Assembly (NCBI GenBank): GCA_019637265.1
Contig: JAHBVY010000004.1
Span: 434,001-498,000, forward strand
From: Polyangiaceae bacterium
Lineage (GTDB): Bacteria; Myxococcota_A; Polyangia; Polyangiales; Polyangiaceae
Direction of reading: 5' to 3'
DNA: 64,000 bases
Made by a program: the position numbers and the translations under genes. Below the pieces are notes generated by a model. That model saw only the letters and a list, made by a program, of their open reading frames with translations, was not told the DNA's origin and searched no databases. Of this stretch, positions 33,896 through 52,757 are shown in pieces (within the stretch, counting starts at the first letter, position 1; each line of letters opens with the position of its first letter).

Positions 33896-34441
33896 CTAGC
33901 CCAGCGTGTGCTGCTCGAGCGCTGATTCGATCACCTGTCCATTCACCGTGATGTAGAGGCGGCCGTCGGAGCGCACCAGCTCCAGGTCGAAGCTGCGGCT
34001 CAGGTGGGGCTCCAGGGTGCTCAAGAGCTGAGGGTCGAGGTGCCACACACAGATCGTCTCGGCGCGGTGGATGGCGGTTAGATCACCCAGCTGACGACTC
34101 AGCTGCTCTAGGGTGAGGTGGGTGTAGAGGAGCACGCGCGGCGTCGCCTTGCTCGCCTTGTGTAGGCGCTCCGCGGACGGTCCCCCCACGTCGACCCAGG
34201 CGAGGCGCGCGCCCGTCATATCCCATATAGAAACAGGTGGCTCGTCGGCGTCGGAGAGCCCACCCTTGCTGAAGGCGCTGCCTGGCTCGTAGGAGAGGGC
34301 GTAGGCCAAGAGGCGCGTCAGCAGGTAGCGCGCGCTCTCGGAGGGGTGCCGCGCCAAGCGAAGCTCGAGCTGCTCGTACACGCCGCGGTCCACGTCCGAG
34401 AGCGTGAGGTTCACACGGTGGAGGGTCGCGGGGAGGGCCAT
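33896..34441 (-). CDS. yaeQ: YaeQ family protein
   Basis: 181 residues, exactly the usual YaeQ length. The pattern MALPATLHRVNLTLSDVDRGVYEQLELRLARHPSES, then RLLAYALSYEP, FSKGGLSDADEPPVSIWDMTG and WVDVGGPSAERLHKASK is characteristic. YaeQ has a PD-(D/E)XK-like fold; its role is unsettled. The ATG at 34441 is set by that alignment; the frame is open further upstream but low-complexity. Confidence 0.9.
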   Translation of the reverse strand: MALPATLHRVNLTLSDVDRGVYEQLELRLARHPSESARYLLTRLLAYALSYEPGSAFSKGGLSDADEPPVSIWDMTGARLAWVDVGGPSAERLHKASKATPRVLLYTHLTLEQLSRQLGDLTAIHRAETICVWHLDPQLLSTLEPHLSRSFDLELVRSDGRLYITVNGQVIESALEQHTLG

Positions 34442-34553
34442 GGCTTGGGATCTCGTGACAAAGGGGCGGCGCTCGCCGCCCAAGTGCGACATGGGCGCGC
34501 GGGTGACGCTAGCAGGTGCTGCGAGTCGGCGCGGAGCTGTGTAGAGTCCCGGC

Positions 34554-36266
34554 GTGCCGGACCCTGTCGATCCCGAGCCGACGACTGACGAGCCCGTGGA
34601 GGGTGAGTCGGCGCTTGCCGGGCCCTCCGTGCTGCCGCCTCCTGCGGCTCCCAAGCTGGGGCTCGCGGATCTCACGATTGGTCTGGGTACCTTACTGGTT
34701 GGCGTCGCCTATGGGCTCTTGCACCCGCTGTCGCAGCACGTCGCCGCGCCCATCTGGTTTTGGATCGCACTGCCGGTGTTGGCGCTCATCGTCTCGCTGA
34801 CCGCGGCGCGGCAAGGCATCCCGCGGGTTTGGTTCGGGTTCGGCGTGTCGTTGCTGCTACCGTTAGGGCTCGCGATCTACGATCACGCGCGCGAGCTGGA
34901 GGCGATCCAGATCCTCGACGATCAAGCGCTGGCGATGGTCGCGCTGTGGCAAGCCTCGGCCGACGCGCGCGGCGTGTTGGTGATCGGCGCGGGGGTGTCG
35001 CTCATCACCGCCGTGGGCATCGAGCTGGTCTTGCTCCGTCATCAGCCGCGGCCGCCGGCGCCCTGCGGCGCGCAGGCCTGGGTCGCGCTGGTGGCGTGGG
35101 CAGCCGCGCTGACGTTCGGTCGAGTGCAGCTGGAGATGACCTGGCTGCTCGAGGACACCCTCGCGGTGGTCGGCATCGCGTGCCTGGCGCTCTTGGTGCG
35201 CGCCGGCTCGAGTCTCTCGCTCGCGGTGTGGGCCCCGCTGGTGCTCGTGGTGCTGGTGTGGGTGCGGGTGGACGCGACGGTCGCGATTCAGAATGGAATC
35301 GACGCGCTGTATGAGCCAGGGCTCGAGGGTGGGCTCGAGCGCGCGCGGCGTGATCGCCTGGTGGTGCTCGACGCGGCGGCCTCGGTGTCGGCGGTGCTCC
35401 TGCTTTTGTGGTCGCTCCGCGCGCGGTTGATGGAGCTGCTCCGGCGCCGCCGCCGGCTCGTGATCTTGGCGGCGGGGTGGGTGGGGCTGTTCGCGGCGGA
35501 GCGTTACATCAATCACGCCGTCGCTGAGCGCGATGGGTTAAAGAGGCTGATCGCGACGGAGGGGCGCGCGGCGCCGAGCGCCCCCTTACGTGGCTACGGG
35601 TGGCTCCCCAAGGCGCCCGTGTTGGTGCTCAGGTCGAGCGGCTCCAGCTGGGCGGAGCCGCCGCGCTATGAGGAGGTGCCGCTCACCGATCAGCTCACGG
35701 CGCTCTCCCGGCGGCCGGCGGGGCTCCCGATGCTGCCGGGGCCGGAGCGCACACTCGTCAGCCCACCGCCCGGTGTGCTGGTGGTGGCGCCGCGTGATCT
35801 CACCCTGCGGGCGCTCCGGGAGCAGCTGGGTGCCGCGGGCGAGTCGCCGCTCGCGCTCCTCCTGCGCGACGCGCGGGTCACTCGTAAGGATGATTTGGCG
35901 CTCGCCGCGAGCTCACGCGCGGTCTCGGTTCGCTTCACCGGGGCCGTGAGCGCGCTACCGAAGGCCGAGGTGCCACGTTACCTGGTGGATATTGAAGGCG
36001 GCGTGGTGGTGGGTCCGCTGGGCGGCGAGGGCACACCCCCGCGCCTCTTGCGCGACGCGTGGCGCTCGTTCCACTGCGCCGCCACCACAGCCGAAGGCCT
36101 CGCGGACCGCGCTTGCGAGGTCGTGGTGGGCGCCCCCAGCGACTGGACTTTGAGCCAGTTGATGCAGCCCCTCGCCGAGCTCCTGCACCCCGAAGACTCA
36201 CCCGAAGCGGTGATGTTCCTCCTCACCGAGGACATGGCGGGCGTCAGTCAGGCAGTGGCGCCGTAG
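34554..36266 (+). CDS. Membrane protein of unknown function
   Basis: 570 residues. A Pro/Glu-rich start is followed by about eight membrane helices up to residue ~330, then a soluble C-terminal domain. The last part (VVVGAPSDWTLSQLMQPLAELLHPEDSPEAVMFLLTED) resembles the periplasmic ExbD-like fold, suggesting a sensor or energiser role outside; that is weak inference. It diverges from yaeQ. No motif with catalytic residues is seen. Confidence 0.65.
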   Translation: MPDPVDPEPTTDEPVEGESALAGPSVLPPPAAPKLGLADLTIGLGTLLVGVAYGLLHPLSQHVAAPIWFWIALPVLALIVSLTAARQGIPRVWFGFGVSLLLPLGLAIYDHARELEAIQILDDQALAMVALWQASADARGVLVIGAGVSLITAVGIELVLLRHQPRPPAPCGAQAWVALVAWAAALTFGRVQLEMTWLLEDTLAVVGIACLALLVRAGSSLSLAVWAPLVLVVLVWVRVDATVAIQNGIDALYEPGLEGGLERARRDRLVVLDAAASVSAVLLLLWSLRARLMELLRRRRRLVILAAGWVGLFAAERYINHAVAERDGLKRLIATEGRAAPSAPLRGYGWLPKAPVLVLRSSGSSWAEPPRYEEVPLTDQLTALSRRPAGLPMLPGPERTLVSPPPGVLVVAPRDLTLRALREQLGAAGESPLALLLRDARVTRKDDLALAASSRAVSVRFTGAVSALPKAEVPRYLVDIEGGVVVGPLGGEGTPPRLLRDAWRSFHCAATTAEGLADRACEVVVGAPSDWTLSQLMQPLAELLHPEDSPEAVMFLLTEDMAGVSQAVAP

Positions 36267-36375: not shown

Positions 36376-38154
36376 TCACGGCTCCCTGCGGAACAGCCAC
36401 CAGGTGCCTTCGCGCGCTACGAGGCGGATGCTCGGGTCCGCCGCGAAGACGACGCTTGGGTCGATGGTGTGGCGCACCAGGAAGGTGTCGAACCAGGCGC
36501 CGTGCTCTAGCACTTGAAAGCGGTCAGGACGCCACTCTAAAAAGTAAGGGAGCCTGGGGGGGTCGTGGGGCGAGCCCTCGCGATAACGGATGGGGTAGAG
36601 GCCCCAGCGCACGAAGTGGAAGTACAGCGCGCCGCCGCGCTCCGCCTGAACCCAAGCGGGGAGGTGGATGAAGGGCGTCGTCGAGCGCTGCGTGCCGGTG
36701 TGATCGTAGATCAAGTAGAGGAGCTTGGGCTGCGGTGGCAGGTGCTGCTGCATCGCGTAAAAGTCTTGATTCAGCGCCTCGAAGCGCCGCCACTCCACGG
36801 CGACTTGGTACGCCTGACGCCCCGCGCTGAGGCTCAAGCACAGCGCGAGCACGAGCGGCACCAGGGGTAGCCGCGGCAGGCCAGGCAGCAGCGCGAGGCC
36901 CAGCGCCGCGAGGGTGAGCGCCTCCCGCGGGTAGACGAAGAACCAACTGCCCCAGGTGAGCGGCAGGCAAACATAGAGCAACCCAATGACGCCGCACATC
37001 AACGCCAGCGCGTAGTGCGCCCGGCGCTTCAATGCATCAGGGCGCTCCGGATGAGTCAGGGTTGTAGAGGTATTCGGTGGTTGGGGCGCCCCTACGTCAC
37101 GCTGACCTTCGGTCTCTGGGGGGTGGACGAGGGGTGGGTTGGACGGCACCGCCTTGGACGGCAGCGGCGAGTCACAGTCTCTTTCGGTCTCTGCGGGGTG
37201 CTCATGACGAGTCGTGCCGGTGGAACGCGTGGCTGGCTCCGAGCGACTGCGGCGCGCGTGGCGGATGAAGGCGCTACCAACCCCCAAACCCAACGCGAGG
37301 AGCGTGAAGGTGAGCCCGAGCTGCTGCTCGTGGGCTCCCGCTGTGCCCTTGAAGCCGCCGAACAGGTGGAGCGGCACTTCCTGCAAGCGCGATGGCTCGA
37401 AGGTGAGCGTGAGGTCATCCCCCAGGCCGTGGTCGCGCGTGAACCAGAAGCCGAGGAAGAGCACCGCGCTCGGGAGCAGCGCGAGCGCCGTCGCCAGCTG
37501 TGCGCGGCGCGTCGCACTACTTTTCCACGAAAAAACGAGCAGGAGCAGCGCGCCGCCGGCGGCGAAGGGGTAGCGGTAGACGTGGGTGAGCAGCGTGAAA
37601 GTCAGTAAAACTGCCAATAACACGGCGCGGCGCCGGATGGCCTTGGGCTCGCTCGCCTGGAGCGTGAGCAGCGTGGCGCCGAGGCTCCCCAAGAAGCAGC
37701 CGAGCGCCGCCACGTGACTGATGAAGCCCCAGTGAGTGAGCGTGGAGTAGAACAGGCCCAGCGCCAGCAAGGCGCCGACGCGGCGCTTACCGAGGCCGCG
37801 CAGCAGCAGCGCGAGGCCCGCCGGCAGCAGGCAGAGCATCAAGACGCTCGCGAGCTTCACCGCGACGTGGATCGGCAGCACCAGGCTGAGCGCGGCGCCC
37901 AGCAGGTAGTGCGTCATGTAGGGCGCGCGCAGCGGGTCGATCTGAAATTGCTCGCGGAAGCCGAAGGCGTCATCGAAATAGTGGCGCAGGATGGAGGTGT
38001 TTGCCGCGTGGAAAGGCATGTCCGTCACCGGCGGGTAACGGACCAGGCTCTGCGGGTAGAACGCCACGTAGCCGAAGAGCAGCGCGAGCGAGAGCAGCCC
38101 CAGGCGCTCCAGGTGGCGACGCTGCCACCACCGCGGCTCTCCGCTAGGTGCCAC
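36376..38154 (-). CDS. Polytopic membrane protein, glycosyltransferase-like
   Basis: 592 residues, ten or more helices. An early loop PPVTDMPFHAANTSILRHYF has acidic and His residues in the position used by GT-C enzymes. A ~75-residue hydrophilic insert (about 310-385) splits the helices and contains two family B elements (37131-37153, 37275-37292). The soluble end has FHFVRWGLYPIRYREG. It overlaps the next upstream gene by 11 bases (its GTG start lies within it), so both are probably made together. Confidence 0.65.
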   Translation of the reverse strand: MAPSGEPRWWQRRHLERLGLLSLALLFGYVAFYPQSLVRYPPVTDMPFHAANTSILRHYFDDAFGFREQFQIDPLRAPYMTHYLLGAALSLVLPIHVAVKLASVLMLCLLPAGLALLLRGLGKRRVGALLALGLFYSTLTHWGFISHVAALGCFLGSLGATLLTLQASEPKAIRRRAVLLAVLLTFTLLTHVYRYPFAAGGALLLLVFSWKSSATRRAQLATALALLPSAVLFLGFWFTRDHGLGDDLTLTFEPSRLQEVPLHLFGGFKGTAGAHEQQLGLTFTLLALGLGVGSAFIRHARRSRSEPATRSTGTTRHEHPAETERDCDSPLPSKAVPSNPPLVHPPETEGQRDVGAPQPPNTSTTLTHPERPDALKRRAHYALALMCGVIGLLYVCLPLTWGSWFFVYPREALTLAALGLALLPGLPRLPLVPLVLALCLSLSAGRQAYQVAVEWRRFEALNQDFYAMQQHLPPQPKLLYLIYDHTGTQRSTTPFIHLPAWVQAERGGALYFHFVRWGLYPIRYREGSPHDPPRLPYFLEWRPDRFQVLEHGAWFDTFLVRHTIDPSVVFAADPSIRLVAREGTWWLFRREP

Positions 38155-40057
38155 CCGGCAGCTCCACCCGCTCGCCCACCTCTGGTAAGCTGAACTCCCT
38201 GAAGTGCCCTGGCGTCCCCGCTACGCGCGGCGGCTGCCAGGCGACGAAGTGGAAGTGCCCGCGCCGCACCTCGCGCTGGAAGTTCACCTCGACCACCGTC
38301 GGCACGCCACGCTCGTCAATTTCTCTGACGATGAGCAGCATCCAGGTGAGCTGCAGTCCCTCACCCGGCTTCATGGGGTACTGCGTGCCGCGGTAGGTGC
38401 CGTCGAAGGGGTCGTTGTAAAGTCCGTGCGGAAACGTCAGCACCAGACGCGTGGGCGACTCGCGCTCCACGATGAGGGGGCCGCGCCCGGCGTGCAGCAT
38501 GCGCAGGTGCCTGGGCACCGGCTCGCCGCGGGTGGCGCGCAGCCCCAGCGTGCTCGCCACGTAGAAATAAGACGGGCCGCCGAGCAGCACCAGGTGCTCC
38601 GCGTGGTCCGGGTGACTCCGCATGATGGCCTCACCCACCTGCGTGAGCTCATCGCCGAAGCGGTGCATGATGAGGCTCCGCTGCGGCGCCGTCATCGGCG
38701 CGAGCACCCCATGGACGAACAAGAGCATCGCCAGGATGAGCGCAGCGCCTCCCCGGGTGGTTACGCTAGCTGACGCCGCTGCGCTCACGGTGTCAGTCGC
38801 GTCATCGGTCATGGCAGTTGACGAACTAGCGCTCACCGCGCCTCCCGCCGCCGCGAGGCATCGCTCCACCGCGATGGCTATCAGCGCGAAGCCGCCTAGC
38901 CCGGTGAAGAACAGCAGGCGATCTTGCGGTAGCGCGGCGCAGGCAGGCAGCGTGGAGAGCGCCATGCCGGCGAGCCAGAACCGCGCCGTGCGGTCACGCA
39001 GGCCCGCGCGAAAGTAATAAAAACTGACTAACAAGGCGATCCACGCGACGGCCGCGGCGCCGATCGAGGTGGGCGTGCTGAGCCGCCACCAAGCTTCGGA
39101 GTCCACCCCGAAGAGCTGCGCGCTGATGAGCGCCGGCCAGCGCCAGAACAGCTCGAGCGCGAAGCGCTGAGTGTCGCGCAGCGGATCGAGGTGAAAGTCC
39201 GTGCCGTAGGTGCCGAACCCCAAGCGCCGGTACATGAAGAGCCACAGCGCCGTCACCAGCAGGCTCGGTAGCAGCACCAGCGCGCGGGTGAGCCAGCGCC
39301 GGAGCCCAGCCTTCGCCGCCGCGCCGGCGTCGAGGAAGCACGCGTGCGCCACCAAGTAGCCGAGCGCGCCCACCGCGTACTCCCCCGCCAACAGGCCGAG
39401 CGCGAGGCAGATCGGCGCCAGCACGCCAGCTAGCCAGCGAACCGGACGACTTGCGCCCGCGGGTCGTCGCCACACGTCGTGCGCCCACAGCGTCAGCACC
39501 CCGAACAAGGTGGCCATGATGGCGTTGCGGTTCGCGAGCCAACTCACGGGGTGCGCGTGGGCGTCGTCCCAGGCGTAGAGCAGCGCCGCCAGCGCGGCGA
39601 GCCAGGTTACTGAGTGGAGGCGCCGGTAGACGCGCGTCACCGCGAAGATGAGGAGCACGTACCACCCGATGCTGTGGAGGTGCGCGAGCCACGGCTGGTC
39701 AGGGAAATAGCGATAGTCGATGAAGTGGGTGAGCGAAGCGAGCGGCCGAAAGAAGGCGACCTTGTAGTCTTGCAGGGTGAACCACGGCACGGTGCCGAAG
39801 TCCTTCAGGCCGTAGATGCTGCCGACGTTGCCGTCGATGTAGTTGAACAGGTTCACCCGCCACGGCAGCTGGATGGCGCCGCCCTTCACCGCGGTGAGGT
39901 GGTAAAAGTCCTCCGTGCGGAGCCCCGTGAACACGGAGGGCAGCACCCAGAGCGCGCCGGTGAGCGCCCCGAGCGCCATCAGGCGCCGCGCGCTCAGCTT
40001 CCCCAGGCCGTGGAGCAGCGCGCTCAGCGCCGCGAGCCAGCGTGGGGTGGGCGGCAT
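38144..40057 (-). CDS. Polytopic membrane protein, PMT/GT-C-like
   Basis: 637 residues from the ATG at 40057. About ten helices, with a first outer loop containing RTEDFYHLTAVKGG and a later DDAHAHPVSWLANRNAIMATLFG. This layout is common in bacterial dolichol-mannose-type mannosyltransferase relatives. The C-terminal ~170 residues are soluble. With the overlapping 36376 gene it may form a surface-glycan assembly pair. The assignment rests on topology rather than on an exact motif. Confidence 0.65.
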   Translation of the reverse strand: MPPTPRWLAALSALLHGLGKLSARRLMALGALTGALWVLPSVFTGLRTEDFYHLTAVKGGAIQLPWRVNLFNYIDGNVGSIYGLKDFGTVPWFTLQDYKVAFFRPLASLTHFIDYRYFPDQPWLAHLHSIGWYVLLIFAVTRVYRRLHSVTWLAALAALLYAWDDAHAHPVSWLANRNAIMATLFGVLTLWAHDVWRRPAGASRPVRWLAGVLAPICLALGLLAGEYAVGALGYLVAHACFLDAGAAAKAGLRRWLTRALVLLPSLLVTALWLFMYRRLGFGTYGTDFHLDPLRDTQRFALELFWRWPALISAQLFGVDSEAWWRLSTPTSIGAAAVAWIALLVSFYYFRAGLRDRTARFWLAGMALSTLPACAALPQDRLLFFTGLGGFALIAIAVERCLAAAGGAVSASSSTAMTDDATDTVSAAASASVTTRGGAALILAMLLFVHGVLAPMTAPQRSLIMHRFGDELTQVGEAIMRSHPDHAEHLVLLGGPSYFYVASTLGLRATRGEPVPRHLRMLHAGRGPLIVERESPTRLVLTFPHGLYNDPFDGTYRGTQYPMKPGEGLQLTWMLLIVREIDERGVPTVVEVNFQREVRRGHFHFVAWQPPRVAGTPGHFREFSLPEVGERVELPGGT

Positions 40058-40103
40058 ATCGAGACCACTACCCGAAAGCTGAGGCGCCGTGTACCGTCGC
40101 CCT

Positions 40104-40646
40104 ATGAAGATCGAGACGGCGACCATCGCTCGGCTTCGGGACGCCTTGATTCAGCGCGGGCGGCGACGGACGGAGGTGGTCTCCAGCGCCGAAGAGGTGC
40201 TGACGCGGGAGGGGCTCTTGAGCCCGGCGGAGAACGAAGCCATCCGCGGCGTGTCGCCGATGGCGGAGGTCATGTACCTGGTGATGGCCGCGGATGGGCG
40301 CGTCGCCGACGCCGAGGTGGACGCGCTGCGCGGCGCGGTGCGGCGCCTCACCGGGGACCTGCTGCAAGATGGCACCGTGCGCGTGATGCTCGAGCGCTTC
40401 CAAGTGAAGCTCGATGAAGAGGGTCACAGCGCGCGGCTCGCGCACCTGGCGGCGCAGCTCACGGACGTGGAGGAGGCGGAGGGCGCCTTCGCCTTGGCGG
40501 CGGCGGTCGCGTTGGCTGACGATCGCGTGGCGCCGGAGGAGAGCGCGCTGATGCGAGAGCTCGCCAGCGCCTTCAGCATCTCGGAAGAGCGAGTGCGCGC
40601 CATCCTGGAGCAACTCGACGCCGATCGCGCTGCTTCTGATTCGTGA
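40104..40646 (+). CDS. TerB-like protein
   Basis: 180 residues. Two helical repeats carry the TerB pattern: MAEVMYLVMAADGRVADAEVDALRGAVRRLTGDLL and FALAAAVALADDRVAPEESALMRELASAFSIS. It is the second TerB-like gene of the window but is not adjacent to other ter genes. The ATG at 40104 is preferred over a GTG 15 bases upstream. It diverges from the 38144 gene after only 46 bases and converges with the phosphotransferase-like gene. Confidence 0.75.
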   Translation: MKIETATIARLRDALIQRGRRRTEVVSSAEEVLTREGLLSPAENEAIRGVSPMAEVMYLVMAADGRVADAEVDALRGAVRRLTGDLLQDGTVRVMLERFQVKLDEEGHSARLAHLAAQLTDVEEAEGAFALAAAVALADDRVAPEESALMRELASAFSISEERVRAILEQLDADRAASDS

Positions 40647-40715: not shown

Positions 40716-43238
40716 CTAAGCCTGCCGCGCCTCCCAACGCGTGACGCCCCACCACGTGAGCGCCGCCGCCAAGAGCCCGGTCATGCTGAACGGCAGATCG
40801 CTGATCACGCGGAGCGCCGTCCAGTAGCTCCCGTGGCAGAAGTAGAGCTGCAGCAAGAGCGCCACCCAGCGCGCGAGGTACATCACCACCAAGGCGGGGA
40901 GCAGCGCGCGCCGCACGTCATGGCCCAGGCGACTGACGAAGGCCACCAGCACGATCAGCTCCGCCAGGATGTACTTCCAGCTGATGGCGGCGGCGACCAC
41001 GGCGAGCGGAGGATTCGGGTCGCGGAACGCGCCAGCGGTGAGGTCGAGCCCGGTGAAGTTGAGGTTGCCCTGGATCGCCATGCGCTGGACGAACAGCAGC
41101 CCGAACACGAAGGCAGCGGCGAGCAGCAGGTCATAGCCACCTGGAGCGTGGCGCTCCACCTCGAAGCGGGTGCCGTGGGGCGCTGAGTCGCGCGCCTCCT
41201 CGCGCCGCGCGCGCCAAGCATCACCAGCTGCTTCCGCGAGGATCAAGGTGGGGACGAGGCCGAGCCACTCGCGGTCGCGCGACACCCAGGCGAAGGCGGC
41301 CAGCGCCGACAGGGTGGCGAGCTGCATGCGCCCGCGGGAGGCCAGCACCAGCGCGAGCAGCGGGAACAGGAGGATGGCCGCGCGACCCACTTGATGCGGC
41401 ACGTAGCGCCTCAGCACCAGGCACAGCGCGACGCCGAGCACCCCGAAGAGCAGCGCGCGCAGTGAGCCGAGCTGCTTTCCGTGCGGATCCACCCGGGTGG
41501 AGGCGGCCCAAACGCCGAGCGCGGTGAGCGCCGCCAGGAGCGACCCCAGCCCCTCGCGCGCCACCCAAGCAGGCAGGTGTCCTTCCTTTTGCGTGCCAGG
41601 GATCACGAGCAGCGCGAGCGCCAGGAGCACGAGCCCGAGGCGCGCCGGATTGAGCGCGGGCGGCCCCGCGCGTAGCCGACTCCAGCCGCTCGAGCGCCGC
41701 TCCGGCCGCCCGATGGGGCCGAGCACGCAGAACACGATGGAGATCACCAACACCGCCACGAAGGCGTGGGGGTGCGTGTTCGACGGGTAGCTCACCAGGA
41801 GCACCCCCGGCACCAACAGCGGCGCCACGCTCCCGAGCCTGAGCGCCCAACGCGCCGCCAAGAGCGGCCGCGCCAGGGTCGAGAGCGCGATCAGGTTGAG
41901 CGCGATGAACAGCGCGACGCGCACCGTGTTGGGCCATTGCCCTGGCAGCCGCTCCACCTGAAACACCAAGAACGTCGCCACCGTGAGCAAGAGCGCCGCT
42001 CCCGGGAGCACGCGCCAGAACCCCAAAGCGCTCCCACCTCCTCGCGCCGCGAACCACGCGAGGCCCAGCGCCGCGAGCAGCATGGCGATGAACACCGACA
42101 GCGATCGCGCCGACGTGATCCCCGCGCGCTCCACCTCGGCGTCCACGAAGCGCGTGATCTCGGCCGCGGCCTCCAGGCGCTGGCTCGGCGCCGCGCCGGT
42201 GTGCGCGCACAGCGCGTGGCTCCCCTGCACCTGCCGTAGGCGCGCGTCGCCGAACTTGGCGCGCCCGAAGGCGTAGCCGCGCTCGGCGTCCTCACACGCG
42301 ATCGCCGCGCGCTTTGCCTCGGGCACCGCGAGCCAAGCGGCGATCAGGTGCCCCCGGCTCTCGCGTGGCGCCGCCACCCCGAGCAGGGCCGCGAACGTCC
42401 CTGGCAAGTCGACTTGATCCAGCTGCCGCTCGAGCTTCACCCCGGGAGCGATGCCAGGGCCATACGCGTAGATGGGCGAGCGACGCTGGAGCGGCGTGTC
42501 CGCTCCGTGGGTCCCCGTGTCCGTCGCGCCGTGGTCGCTCGTCACGATCACGGTCCACTCGGGGCCTACCTCGCCGAGCAGCTCGCTCAGCTGACGGTCG
42601 TAGTCCAGCATGTGCGCGCGGTAGCGCTCCGAGTGGATCCCGTAGACGTGCCCTTGGTGATCGGGCGTGACGAAGTGCGAAATCAGTACGTTTGGCTGAC
42701 GCGCCAGCAGCTCACGCGTGTCGCGGAACGTCTGCGGGTTGAAGTCGACGTCCATCGCGACGCCGGCTGGGTCCGGCCGGAGCTCGTGGAAGCTGGGCCC
42801 GAACATCTGACCCCAGGCGGGGTCGCCCACCGCCATCAAGGTGAGGCCCGCCTCGCGCGCGTTGGCGAGCCAGGAGTTCACGCGCGGCTCGGCCGGGTTC
42901 AGGTTGCGCACCGCCTGCTCTAGCTGACCGCGCTGCCCGGTGGCGTACGAGAGCACCGCGCTAGTGGTCATGGACACCCGGCCTGCCCAAATCTCACCGC
43001 TGGTGTGGCGGCGCATCGCCTCGCTGAAGCGCGGCATCCGCTCGGGATCGGTCGCCACGTCGTAGCGGAGCCCGTCCACGATCACGAACAGCAGGTGCTT
43101 CGTCAGGGGCGCTGATAATTTGGGCTGGTAGCTCGTCGCGGGCGGCTCCTCGGGTTGGAGCAGCACGCCGATCACCCCGTAGCTCGATCCGGCGATCAAG
43201 AGCAGGCACAAGAGCAGGACTGAAGCGGGCTTCGACAC
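40716..43238 (-). CDS. Alkaline-phosphatase-fold membrane protein like GPI ethanolamine-phosphate transferases
   Basis: 840 residues. An N-terminal helix leads to a periplasmic alkaline-phosphatase-superfamily domain: FVIVDGLRYD (Asp55), nucleophile region SMTTSAVLSYATG (Thr91 or Thr92), TPDHQGHVYG (Asp193, His197) and VTSDHGATDTGTHGADTP (Asp235, His236, His244). Then come ten or more helices (about 380-840). The SDHG...G-x-HG-x-x-TP signature and layout match PIG-N/PIG-O-type ethanolamine-phosphate transferases. It probably modifies a lipid-linked glycan on the outer face; the acceptor is inferred. Confidence 0.82.
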   Translation of the reverse strand: MSKPASVLLLCLLLIAGSSYGVIGVLLQPEEPPATSYQPKLSAPLTKHLLFVIVDGLRYDVATDPERMPRFSEAMRRHTSGEIWAGRVSMTTSAVLSYATGQRGQLEQAVRNLNPAEPRVNSWLANAREAGLTLMAVGDPAWGQMFGPSFHELRPDPAGVAMDVDFNPQTFRDTRELLARQPNVLISHFVTPDHQGHVYGIHSERYRAHMLDYDRQLSELLGEVGPEWTVIVTSDHGATDTGTHGADTPLQRRSPIYAYGPGIAPGVKLERQLDQVDLPGTFAALLGVAAPRESRGHLIAAWLAVPEAKRAAIACEDAERGYAFGRAKFGDARLRQVQGSHALCAHTGAAPSQRLEAAAEITRFVDAEVERAGITSARSLSVFIAMLLAALGLAWFAARGGGSALGFWRVLPGAALLLTVATFLVFQVERLPGQWPNTVRVALFIALNLIALSTLARPLLAARWALRLGSVAPLLVPGVLLVSYPSNTHPHAFVAVLVISIVFCVLGPIGRPERRSSGWSRLRAGPPALNPARLGLVLLALALLVIPGTQKEGHLPAWVAREGLGSLLAALTALGVWAASTRVDPHGKQLGSLRALLFGVLGVALCLVLRRYVPHQVGRAAILLFPLLALVLASRGRMQLATLSALAAFAWVSRDREWLGLVPTLILAEAAGDAWRARREEARDSAPHGTRFEVERHAPGGYDLLLAAAFVFGLLFVQRMAIQGNLNFTGLDLTAGAFRDPNPPLAVVAAAISWKYILAELIVLVAFVSRLGHDVRRALLPALVVMYLARWVALLLQLYFCHGSYWTALRVISDLPFSMTGLLAAALTWWGVTRWEARQA

Positions 43239-50283: not shown

Positions 50284-51672
50284 GTGCGAGCGGGCGCGTT
50301 CTTCAGGGGGACTTCGGTGCGTGCCCGGGCGCGGCGTGGCGCGCTCCGGAGGACTGCCGTGCGAGCGCTGGTTTGTCGCGGCGCGCTCTTCAAGGGGGTT
50401 TGGGGGTTTGGCATCGCGCCACTCGCCGCTCTGTCGCTGGGGTGCCGTGAAGTGCCCCGTGAGTCGCCCGTGGGTGATGCCGGTCCAACGCCGAGCGGCG
50501 TCCCTGCCGTGAGCGCGAGCGGCGCGGAGCCGGCGCCTGGTGATGGGGGGCTCGCAGGGGGAGGGCCGCTGGGTGACGCGCAGCCTTCGAGGGACGCGGG
50601 CACGGAGCGCGATCCATCGCGGGTGGTGCTGCTGTTCGGCGGTGACATCAACCTGGGGCGCGGCACGGGGCAGCGCATCTTGCGTGATCCGGAGTACGCC
50701 CCGCTGCGCTTCCTGAAGCCGGTCTTCGACTCCGCCGACCTCCGAGTGATGAACCTCGAGAGTCAGCTCTCGGATCAGGGCGGGGAGACGCAGTCGAAGC
50801 ACAACTCGCTGGTGTTCACGGGGCCGCCGGGCGGCGCCGAGGTGCTGAAGGCGGCGGGGGTAGAGTGGGTGTCGCTCGCCAATAACCACGCGTGGGATTA
50901 CGGAAAATCCGCGCTCTTCGAGACGTTTACGAACCTGGAGCGAGCGGGGGTGGGGTACGTCGGCGCGAGCCGTGAGCCAGGCAGCCAGGCTTACGAACCG
51001 GCGCGCACCGTGGTGCGTGGGCTCCCCATCGCCTTGTTCTCGGTGACCCACATCTGGAATCAGGGCCCGATCAACGAGCACCCGGGGAGGCTGCACGTGG
51101 CCTGGGCGGAGTTCAGCAAGCTGGCGCCGCGCATCGCGGCGGCCAAGGCGCGCGGTGAGCTGGTGATCCTGCTCTACCACGGCGGCGCCGAGTACGTGGA
51201 CGCGCCCATGACCTGGACGCGGGACTTCGTGCGCGCGTCGATGAAGGCGGGCGTGGACGCCTTCATTGGGCACCACCCGCACGTGCCGCAGGGGGTGGGC
51301 TTCGCAGGAACTCGCCCGGTCTTCTACAGCCTTGGCAACCTGGTGTTCCCGATGCACAAGGATCACCCCGCGACCGGGACCGGCTTCCTCGCGCGGCTGA
51401 GCTACCAGCTCACGGGCGGCGCGCCCGAGCTCGCCAGCGTGGAGGCGTGCCCCTACTTCATCTTGGGGCACGTGCCGAAGCCCTTCGACGACGCCGCGGC
51501 GCCGGCTCGCTACGCGGCGCTGCGTCAGCGCCTGAACCTCACCTCACGCGCGGTGGGTGGCAGCGTGGTGGGCGAGCCGGGTGAAGACGGCTGCTTGCCA
51601 TTGAGCCCACCAGAGCGCTCCGGGCCTGGCGCGCCGCTCGGCTGGACGGCGCCGCGGAGGGCCGCGCCATGA
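50284..51672 (+). CDS. CapA-family (PGA synthesis type) lipoprotein
   Basis: 462 residues. The N terminus is very basic (RARARRGALRRT) before a hydrophobic run ending in LSLGC. The calcineurin-like CapA domain shows LLFGGDINLGRG, VMNLESQLSDQG, VSLANNHAWDYG, ILLYHGGAEY and FIGHHPHVPQGV. Relatives act in poly-gamma-glutamate capsule or other extracellular polymer synthesis. A family B element (50394-50415) encodes part of the signal sequence. It overlaps the SUMF1-fold gene by 4 bases (ATGA). Confidence 0.85.
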   Translation: MRAGAFFRGTSVRARARRGALRRTAVRALVCRGALFKGVWGFGIAPLAALSLGCREVPRESPVGDAGPTPSGVPAVSASGAEPAPGDGGLAGGGPLGDAQPSRDAGTERDPSRVVLLFGGDINLGRGTGQRILRDPEYAPLRFLKPVFDSADLRVMNLESQLSDQGGETQSKHNSLVFTGPPGGAEVLKAAGVEWVSLANNHAWDYGKSALFETFTNLERAGVGYVGASREPGSQAYEPARTVVRGLPIALFSVTHIWNQGPINEHPGRLHVAWAEFSKLAPRIAAAKARGELVILLYHGGAEYVDAPMTWTRDFVRASMKAGVDAFIGHHPHVPQGVGFAGTRPVFYSLGNLVFPMHKDHPATGTGFLARLSYQLTGGAPELASVEACPYFILGHVPKPFDDAAAPARYAALRQRLNLTSRAVGGSVVGEPGEDGCLPLSPPERSGPGAPLGWTAPRRAAP

Positions 51673-52757
51673 GGTGTGACGAAGGCACGCGAGCGACGAG
51701 CGGCGCCAGGCGTGTGCGGCGCCTCGGCCTAGTTAGTGAGCTTAGCTGCCTGGCGGCGCTGGTGTTGCTCACGGCGGGTGGCTGTCAGCGTGGTCAAACG
51801 GACGAACCAGTGGGCGCGGCGCCGCCCAGCGCGATCCCAAACCCTGGCGCGGCTCAGGCCCCTGGTGCATCGAGCGGAGCAGTCAATGGCGCTAACGAGC
51901 GGGTGAGCGGCGCGGCCGGCGCACCCAGCGGTGAGCCGAGCTGCCCTGGGGGCCGGAGCCCGGTGCGCGGCGAGTGCCCGGCGTGGTGTCCGGAGGGGAT
52001 GGTGTTCATCCCGGCCACGGGCGAGGCGGGCTTCCAGATGGGGCGCGGCGCGCCGGGCAGCGACGACCAGGCGCACCAGGTGGTGCTGAGCGAGCCGTTC
52101 TGCATGGATCAGACCGAGGTCACCGTGCGCGCTTACCGCGCCTGCGTGGAGGCTGGGAAGTGCAGCGAGCCGCAGCTCCGGGACATCAACGCGAACTATC
52201 GGAGCGAGTACGACCGCGCGGATCACCCGGTGAACATGGTGAACTGGACCCAGGCCACCGAATACTGCAATTCCGTGGGGAAACATTTGCCGACCGAGGC
52301 GCAGTGGGAGTACGCCGCGAGCCGCGGTGACGGGCGAAAGTTCCCTTGGGGGAATGATCCGGAGCCCAGCTGCGACAGCGGTCACGCCGACTTCACCCCG
52401 AACGGCTCGCCGCAGACCAACCCCGCGGGGGACGTCGGCTGCCACGGCGGCGGGACCAGCCCGGTGAAGGCGCACCCCAACGGTAAGGTGAGCTGGCCAG
52501 CGGGGGACCTCTACGACATGGGCGGCAACGTGTGGGAGTGGACGTCGGATTGTTACCTGCCGTACCCGAGCGGCACGGTGATGGACCCCGCGCCGAAGCA
52601 CCACCCGAACCTCAAAGACAGTTGCTATGTCTATTCGCTGCGCGGCGGCGGCTGGAACCGTAGCGTGACGGCGCTCCGCACCTACGGGCGCGCCGCGAGC
52701 AAGATCACCTACCGCGTGCCCGCGCTCGGCTTCCGCTGCGCGAGCAGGCTCCAATAG
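51669..52757 (+). CDS. SUMF1/FGE-fold lipoprotein lacking the catalytic cysteine pair
   Basis: 362 residues. The lipobox LLTAGGC is followed by a Pro/Ala/Gly linker. The formylglycine-generating-enzyme fold is unmistakable: FCMDQTEVTVRAYRACVEAG, HPVNMVNWTQATEYCNSVGKHLPTEAQWEYAAS, DMGGNVWEWTSDCY, RGGGWNRSVTALRTYGRAAS and LGFRCAS. The redox cysteine pair of true FGE after RGG is replaced here by WNRSVTALR, so it probably does not oxidise sulfatases and may be structural or binding. A family A copy (52269-52284) is within the conserved block. Confidence 0.88.
   Translation: MRCDEGTRATSGARRVRRLGLVSELSCLAALVLLTAGGCQRGQTDEPVGAAPPSAIPNPGAAQAPGASSGAVNGANERVSGAAGAPSGEPSCPGGRSPVRGECPAWCPEGMVFIPATGEAGFQMGRGAPGSDDQAHQVVLSEPFCMDQTEVTVRAYRACVEAGKCSEPQLRDINANYRSEYDRADHPVNMVNWTQATEYCNSVGKHLPTEAQWEYAASRGDGRKFPWGNDPEPSCDSGHADFTPNGSPQTNPAGDVGCHGGGTSPVKAHPNGKVSWPAGDLYDMGGNVWEWTSDCYLPYPSGTVMDPAPKHHPNLKDSCYVYSLRGGGWNRSVTALRTYGRAASKITYRVPALGFRCASRLQ

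Follow-up and report, generated by a model that had tools for sequence, protein, structure and literature searches.

The gene located at positions 40716-43238 (minus strand) of the window, i.e., the 64,000-nucleotide stretch of Polyangiaceae DNA analyzed in the current work, on balance encodes a bacterial protein that is distantly homologous to the GPI ethanolamine-phosphate transferases PIG-N, PIG-O and PIG-G (yeast Mcd4, Gpi13 and Gpi7) and would act as a periplasmic head-group phosphotransferase. The window corresponds to G000:C16:434001-498000 of a 5.7-Mb genome present in 21 contigs (completeness 98.5). The gene constitutes a single open frame specifying an 840-aa protein from a GTG start, with a G+C content at third codon positions of 0.90, and its assignment as a phosphatase-superfamily membrane protein gene is based on the open frame, its translation, its orthologues, a match to Pfam family PF01663 and a structural model. 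Considering that orthologues are found in relatives and that all seven catalytic and metal positions are invariant among them, the frame was confirmed to be a genuine gene rather than a chance occurrence.

PF01663 is the sole Pfam family scoring above cut-off in the protein (E 3.6e-14, 53.5 bits versus a cut-off of 23), and is matched by 11 of 11 orthologues. Hydropathy analysis indicated one segment at residue 7 and 11 segments from residue 380 onward, while the AlphaFold2 model generated from 11 aligned rows (pLDDT 86.7, pTM 0.85) is composed of a helix at residues 2-26, an alpha/beta domain at residues 48-286, helices at residues 307-372, and then a membrane bundle of about 14 helices (as compared to the 11 hydropathy segments). 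Three regions, all on the minus strand, were delineated: an N-terminal membrane helix (residues 2-26; 43161-43235) placed by model secondary structure and hydropathy, a catalytic domain (residues 44-305; 42324-43109) delimited by the part of the model (residues 45-305) that structurally matches Xac NPP, and a polytopic membrane domain (residues 377-839; 40722-42110) defined by the models and by invariant charged residues. The preliminary description of this DNA had proposed a phosphatase-superfamily domain fused to a long helix bundle, an arrangement which is borne out by the PF01663 match, the hydropathy profile and the model, and the motifs it had read from the sequence (DGLRYD, DHQGH and SDHG-N6-HG-N2-TP) are present letter for letter in the translation.

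Each of these motifs contributes predicted active-site residues. The first metal ligand is predicted to be D55 of the D55-GLRYD motif (43059-43076), and the nucleophile T91 (42966-42968); both are conserved in 10 of 10 covering rows and are aligned to Xac NPP, T91 being paired with a threonine of that enzyme. The remaining predicted metal ligands, invariant in 11 of 11 rows, are D193 and H197 of the D193-HQGH197 motif (42648-42662), together with D235, H236 and H244 of the S234-DHG-N6-HG-N2-TP motif (42492-42539), for which a spacing table was also compiled. Alignment of the family profile with Xac NPP (PDB 2gsn) brought all seven catalytic positions into register with those of the latter, which we take to be D54, T90, D210, H214, D257, H258 and H363. 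As judged from the aligned residues, the two-metal site and threonine nucleophile typical of the alkaline phosphatase superfamily would therefore be present. The gap from DHG to the last metal histidine (H244) is just six residues, and the same short spacing occurs in PIG-N, PIG-O and PIG-G.

The catalytic domain belongs to the alkaline phosphatase superfamily, and more specifically to its PF01663 branch. Its model was matched best by Xac NPP in a VIA comparison (Z 28.0, rmsd 2.4, 251 aligned residues), followed by other NPPs, PafA and sulfatases with Z values of about 24 to 27. The Foldseek list obtained for the model includes LtaS and related periplasmic domains, with YejM periplasmic domains and the inner-membrane protein 6v8q ranking high, and five proteins of phosphatase or sulfatase type make up the matches obtained from a viral library at E<=0.001. 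PIG-N, PIG-O and PIG-G are absent from these structure match lists, an absence from lists which does not amount to proof, and no solved structure of the three was encountered among the PDB sequences matched by the bacterial profiles.

The relationship to the GPI transferases was evaluated using reconstructed, non-curated human PIG-N, PIG-O and PIG-G sequences checked with Pfam, which clearly recognized the PIG-N tail (144.4 bits) and PIG-G (101.8 bits). The reconstructed PIG-O sequence reached 19.5 bits with PF19316, below the cut-off of 27, so that this model may be ill suited to judging PIG-O-like proteins. Against these reconstructed sequences the window-family profile obtained scores of 104.6 bits for PIG-G, 103.8 bits for PIG-O and 70.7 bits for PIG-N, whereas the best PDB protein, Xac NPP, was assigned 54.3 bits; PIG-G and PIG-O thus score approximately twice as high, in bits, as any PDB protein. 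BLASTP of the 840-aa protein returned the same order (79.3 bits for PIG-G, 70.1 for PIG-O and 54.7 for PIG-N). A wider bacterial profile of 12 rows scored higher still with the reconstructed sequences (PIG-N 128.0, PIG-O 151.1 and PIG-G 182.6 bits), and the best PDB protein for the corresponding 13-row profile was found at 56.9 bits. In the reverse direction, a PIG profile searched against the source genome retrieved the 40716-43238 gene as the single strong match (79.4 bits, the next being at 21.1), and across the phylum it produced matches in 22 of 377 genomes at E<=1e-15. Other bacterial proteins with a long tail scored up to 138 bits with the PIG profile, and those with a short tail up to 90 bits. 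As other bacterial proteins outscore the window protein, the link to the PIG proteins is one to a broad bacterial group. By sequence, the nearest known relatives of the catalytic domain are PIG-N, PIG-O and PIG-G, and the profile scores support distant homology as the basis of this resemblance. Phosphatase-fold membrane proteins of a second bacterial group were also observed in several families of the phylum (L059, L091, L092, L095, L096 and L098; ORFs of 547-619 aa); they are characterized by a DHGHxxxGGHG motif and by only 4-5 helices following the catalytic domain.

The polytopic domain was analyzed separately. When modelled alone it was again predicted with good scores (pLDDT 86.8, pTM 0.89), and residues E429, R654, K755 and R790 are invariant in 21 of 21 rows. 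No Foldseek match was obtained for this model at E<=0.001, and its best VIA match (Z 5.3, rmsd 4.3, 148 aligned residues) falls below the helical-bundle noise level of the tool. The window protein does not match the Pfam families PF19316 (PIGO_PIGG) and PF04987 (PigN), and neither family yielded anything above cut-off in the 39 genomes searched with each. Profile comparisons identified a membrane-domain motif, GNLNFTGLDLTAGAFRDP (residues 724-741; 41016-41069, minus strand), which matches wider bacterial families and, through these, PIG-G and PIG-O.

For this work, and for comparisons of the wider profile with the PIG proteins, row L053, which is out of frame in its C-terminal half, was excluded from the wider profile; it was retained in the A2 alignment (the 13-row profile) and, with its catalytic domain only, in the tree. 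The hhalign comparison of the window-family membrane profile with that of the wider bacterial long-tail proteins gave a score of 75.1 (E 9.2e-9, 205 columns), as compared to a mean of 18.3 and a maximum of 36.3 in 60 shuffles. The wider bacterial families in turn scored 31.4 with the tails of PIG-G and PIG-O (shuffle maximum 22.9), 36.9 with the whole C-terminal halves of these two proteins (shuffle maximum 20.8) and 35.6 with all three PIG proteins (shuffle maximum 24.3), none of 100 shuffles being as high in any of these comparisons. The best-matching motif reads NNIATVDISAGFVG in PIG-G and LNFTGLDLTAGAFRD in the window protein, and is located in both roughly 100 to 130 residues before the C-terminus. 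Direct comparison of the window-family membrane domain with the PIG proteins was not significant, scores as high arising in 21, 48 and 6 of 100 shuffles, and neither was that of the PIG-N tail with the wider families, where 22 of 100 shuffles reached the observed score. In a second shuffle test the wider profile placed PIG-N above all 300 shuffles and PIG-G above all but one, while PIG-O was equalled by 24 of 300; with the window-family profile, shuffles as high numbered 139 of 300 for PIG-O, 26 of 291 for PIG-N and 8 of 298 for PIG-G. The likeness to PIG-N, PIG-O and PIG-G that had been ascribed to the protein is upheld for the catalytic domain by profile scores and by the reverse search, while for the membrane domain it is traced only through bacterial intermediates. 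Homology of the latter domain to PIG-G and PIG-O would thus be indirect and would mostly concern one motif.

Orthologues are unevenly distributed among relatives. A search with the single protein gave matches in 13 of 59 genomes at E<=1e-10, and a full-length or contig-cut orthologue was present in 11 of the 37 genomes searched from the same family, its own genome included. An alignment-based search of the class at the same threshold returned 119 of 289 genomes, most being matched in the catalytic domain only; near-full-length matches, counted by hand, were present in 17 of these 289 genomes, all but one (G285) belonging to the same family, and three genomes (G211, G228 and G270) possess two near-full-length copies each. 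From this patchy distribution we infer that the gene is dispensable within the group. In a tree of 49 catalytic-domain rows the window family forms one clade (100/99) located outside the PIG proteins, a position which makes it unlikely that this family recently acquired the gene from eukaryotes. The deep forks that would place the PIG proteins have weak support (55/76), and the tree contains several long branches.

The genomic surroundings were inspected because the preliminary description had envisaged a gene group, comprising three adjacent membrane glycosyltransferase-like genes, that would build and decorate a lipid-linked surface glycan. The three ORFs do exist (38144-40126, 36376-38154 and 34554-36266), yet none of them was matched to a glycosyltransferase family. 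The first (minus strand) encodes a 660-aa membrane protein that resembles a GT-C enzyme by eye only and is without a family match, and the second (minus strand) a 592-aa membrane protein with a weak PF10131 match (10.3 bits versus a cut-off of 26.4); neither was judged to be part of the system. Of 39 genomes, 25 contain matches to the 38144-40126 protein (16 in G007 and 20 in G045), these many matches per genome indicating a multicopy family without a Pfam family, and in the genus-mate its best match is located on contig C940, while the orthologue of the phosphatase gene resides on C887. Furthermore, a TerB-like gene (40089-40646, plus strand; PF05099, 8.6e-10) is situated between, convergent with 40716-43238, so that the latter and the minus-strand membrane genes do not form one operon.

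Neighbours were compared by matching the window genes to the ORFs of 12 regions and five further loci, and all against all at 11 loci, the window included. No glycosyltransferase-like neighbour recurred at the other loci, several of whose contigs end close to the gene, and the loci compared did not exhibit a conserved gene context pointing to a substrate. The neighbours that recur in the genus-mate contig L015 are the TerB-like gene, kept beside the orthologue with 59% identity, and a fragment of the 43567-45294 gene, and the FGE-domain gene 51669-52757 has matches in L018 and L020 at some kilobases from the orthologue. The glycan gene cluster was therefore rejected as unsupported, given that the membrane neighbours are not conserved, that an opposite-strand TerB-like gene intervenes and that the nearest of them belongs to a multicopy family. 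Elsewhere in the window, a PGA_cap capsule-synthesis-type gene is directly followed by the FGE-sulfatase-domain gene with an overlap of a few bases (50284-52757), and a YaeQ-family gene is present at 33896-34675 (PF07152, 1e-44).

Several known systems share features with the window protein, and the principal alternative readings can be weighed against them. With PIG-N, PIG-O and PIG-G it has in common the catalytic-domain sequence, including the motifs DxLRxD, GDxxW, DHxGH and DHG-N6-HG, the domain order, in which a single helix precedes the catalytic domain and many follow it (from hydropathy and model, the sidedness being presumptive), and, via bacterial intermediates, one membrane-domain motif; it differs in being bacterial, in having no PF19316 or PF04987 match and in that no GPI pathway is indicated. 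Xac NPP and ENPP1-7 resemble it in fold and catalytic positions, and the protein might accordingly be an NPP-type phosphodiesterase tethered to the membrane, which would hydrolyse nucleotides or the head groups of phospholipids on the periplasmic side, its helix bundle serving as an anchor or lipid-access device. This reading, which we regard as unlikely, draws on Xac NPP being the best match both in structure and among PDB sequences, and on PF01663 being alone above the Pfam cut-off. In NPPs a long insert precedes the last metal histidine, and a polytopic C-terminal domain is missing. In Xac NPP about 100 residues separate DHG from that histidine, and this insert is missing from the window protein; NPPs also score lower than the PIG proteins against the window-family profile, with PIG-G and PIG-O at about twice the bits of Xac NPP, and the conservation of the polytopic domain, along with its invariant charged residues, points to a role beyond anchoring.

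The protein could instead be a phosphotransferase that employs the same chemistry but supplies a surface polymer with another head group, such as phosphoglycerol taken from phosphatidylglycerol or cardiolipin, in the manner of LtaS and OpgB. The presence of LtaS and related domains in the Foldseek list agrees with this, as do the large size of the wider bacterial group and the fact that the analysis linked no residue of the window protein to specificity. EptA, LtaS and OpgB have an alkaline-phosphatase fold facing the periplasm or outside, as proposed for the window protein, and carry their membrane helices N-terminal to the catalytic domain. The window protein departs from this order, having one helix before and 11 hydropathy segments after that domain, and its sequence similarity is to the PIG proteins and not to LtaS, LtaS-type proteins being absent from the best 60 PDB sequence matches of the family profile; transfer of another head group is thus considered distinctly improbable. 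The high rank of YejM periplasmic domains and 6v8q in the Foldseek list might further evoke a YejM/PbgA-like protein devoid of catalytic activity that acts as a sensor or binds lipids, a notion hardly credible in view of the seven catalytic and metal positions being kept in every covering row.

For the favored reading, in which the protein is related by homology to the GPI ethanolamine-phosphate transferases, it can be proposed that T91 mediates transfer in two steps at the periplasmic face. The N-terminal helix would hold the alkaline-phosphatase-fold domain, presumably of the zinc type, on the periplasmic face of the membrane. T91 would then attack the phosphodiester of a phospholipid head group, the most plausible donor being phosphatidylethanolamine, to form a covalent phospho-head-group intermediate. 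This group would next be passed, in a transferase rather than a hydrolase reaction, to a hydroxyl group on a membrane-bound acceptor, which would probably be a glycolipid, while the lipid substrates may be held by the C-terminal bundle, which carries the invariant charged residues.

A bolder reading, which we deem quite unlikely, is that bacteria possessed the full GPI-transferase architecture earlier than eukaryotes or independently of them, and that Polyangia put phosphoethanolamine on an inositol- or mannose-bearing periplasmic glycolipid as a counterpart of the GPI core. It is compatible with the occurrence of inositol-1-phosphate synthase in the source genome and in 31 of the 39 genomes searched, and of the PF03901 mannosyltransferase in 4 of 39. 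The latter family (PIG-B/ALG-type) scored above cut-off in the relatives G009, G012, G021 and G041 and in 0 of 14 control genomes; no PF03901 member was retrieved from the source genome, so that, despite the synthase, a full GPI pathway is not indicated there.

In people, PIG-N, PIG-O and PIG-G are linked to disease, and they are also studied as antifungal targets. A bacterial homologue as compact as this one (840 residues) could open a route to the structure and mechanism of these enzymes. No description of a bacterial PIG-N, PIG-O or PIG-G homologue was found in the literature covered, which was mostly open-access, and GPI-anchor synthesis is presented as Asgard-derived in a portion of PMC12872458. 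The existence of bacterial proteins of PIG architecture makes the origin of the ethanolamine-phosphate step worth testing with a proper tree, and suggests that the design of the PIG-N, PIG-O and PIG-G enzymes is not confined to eukaryotes.
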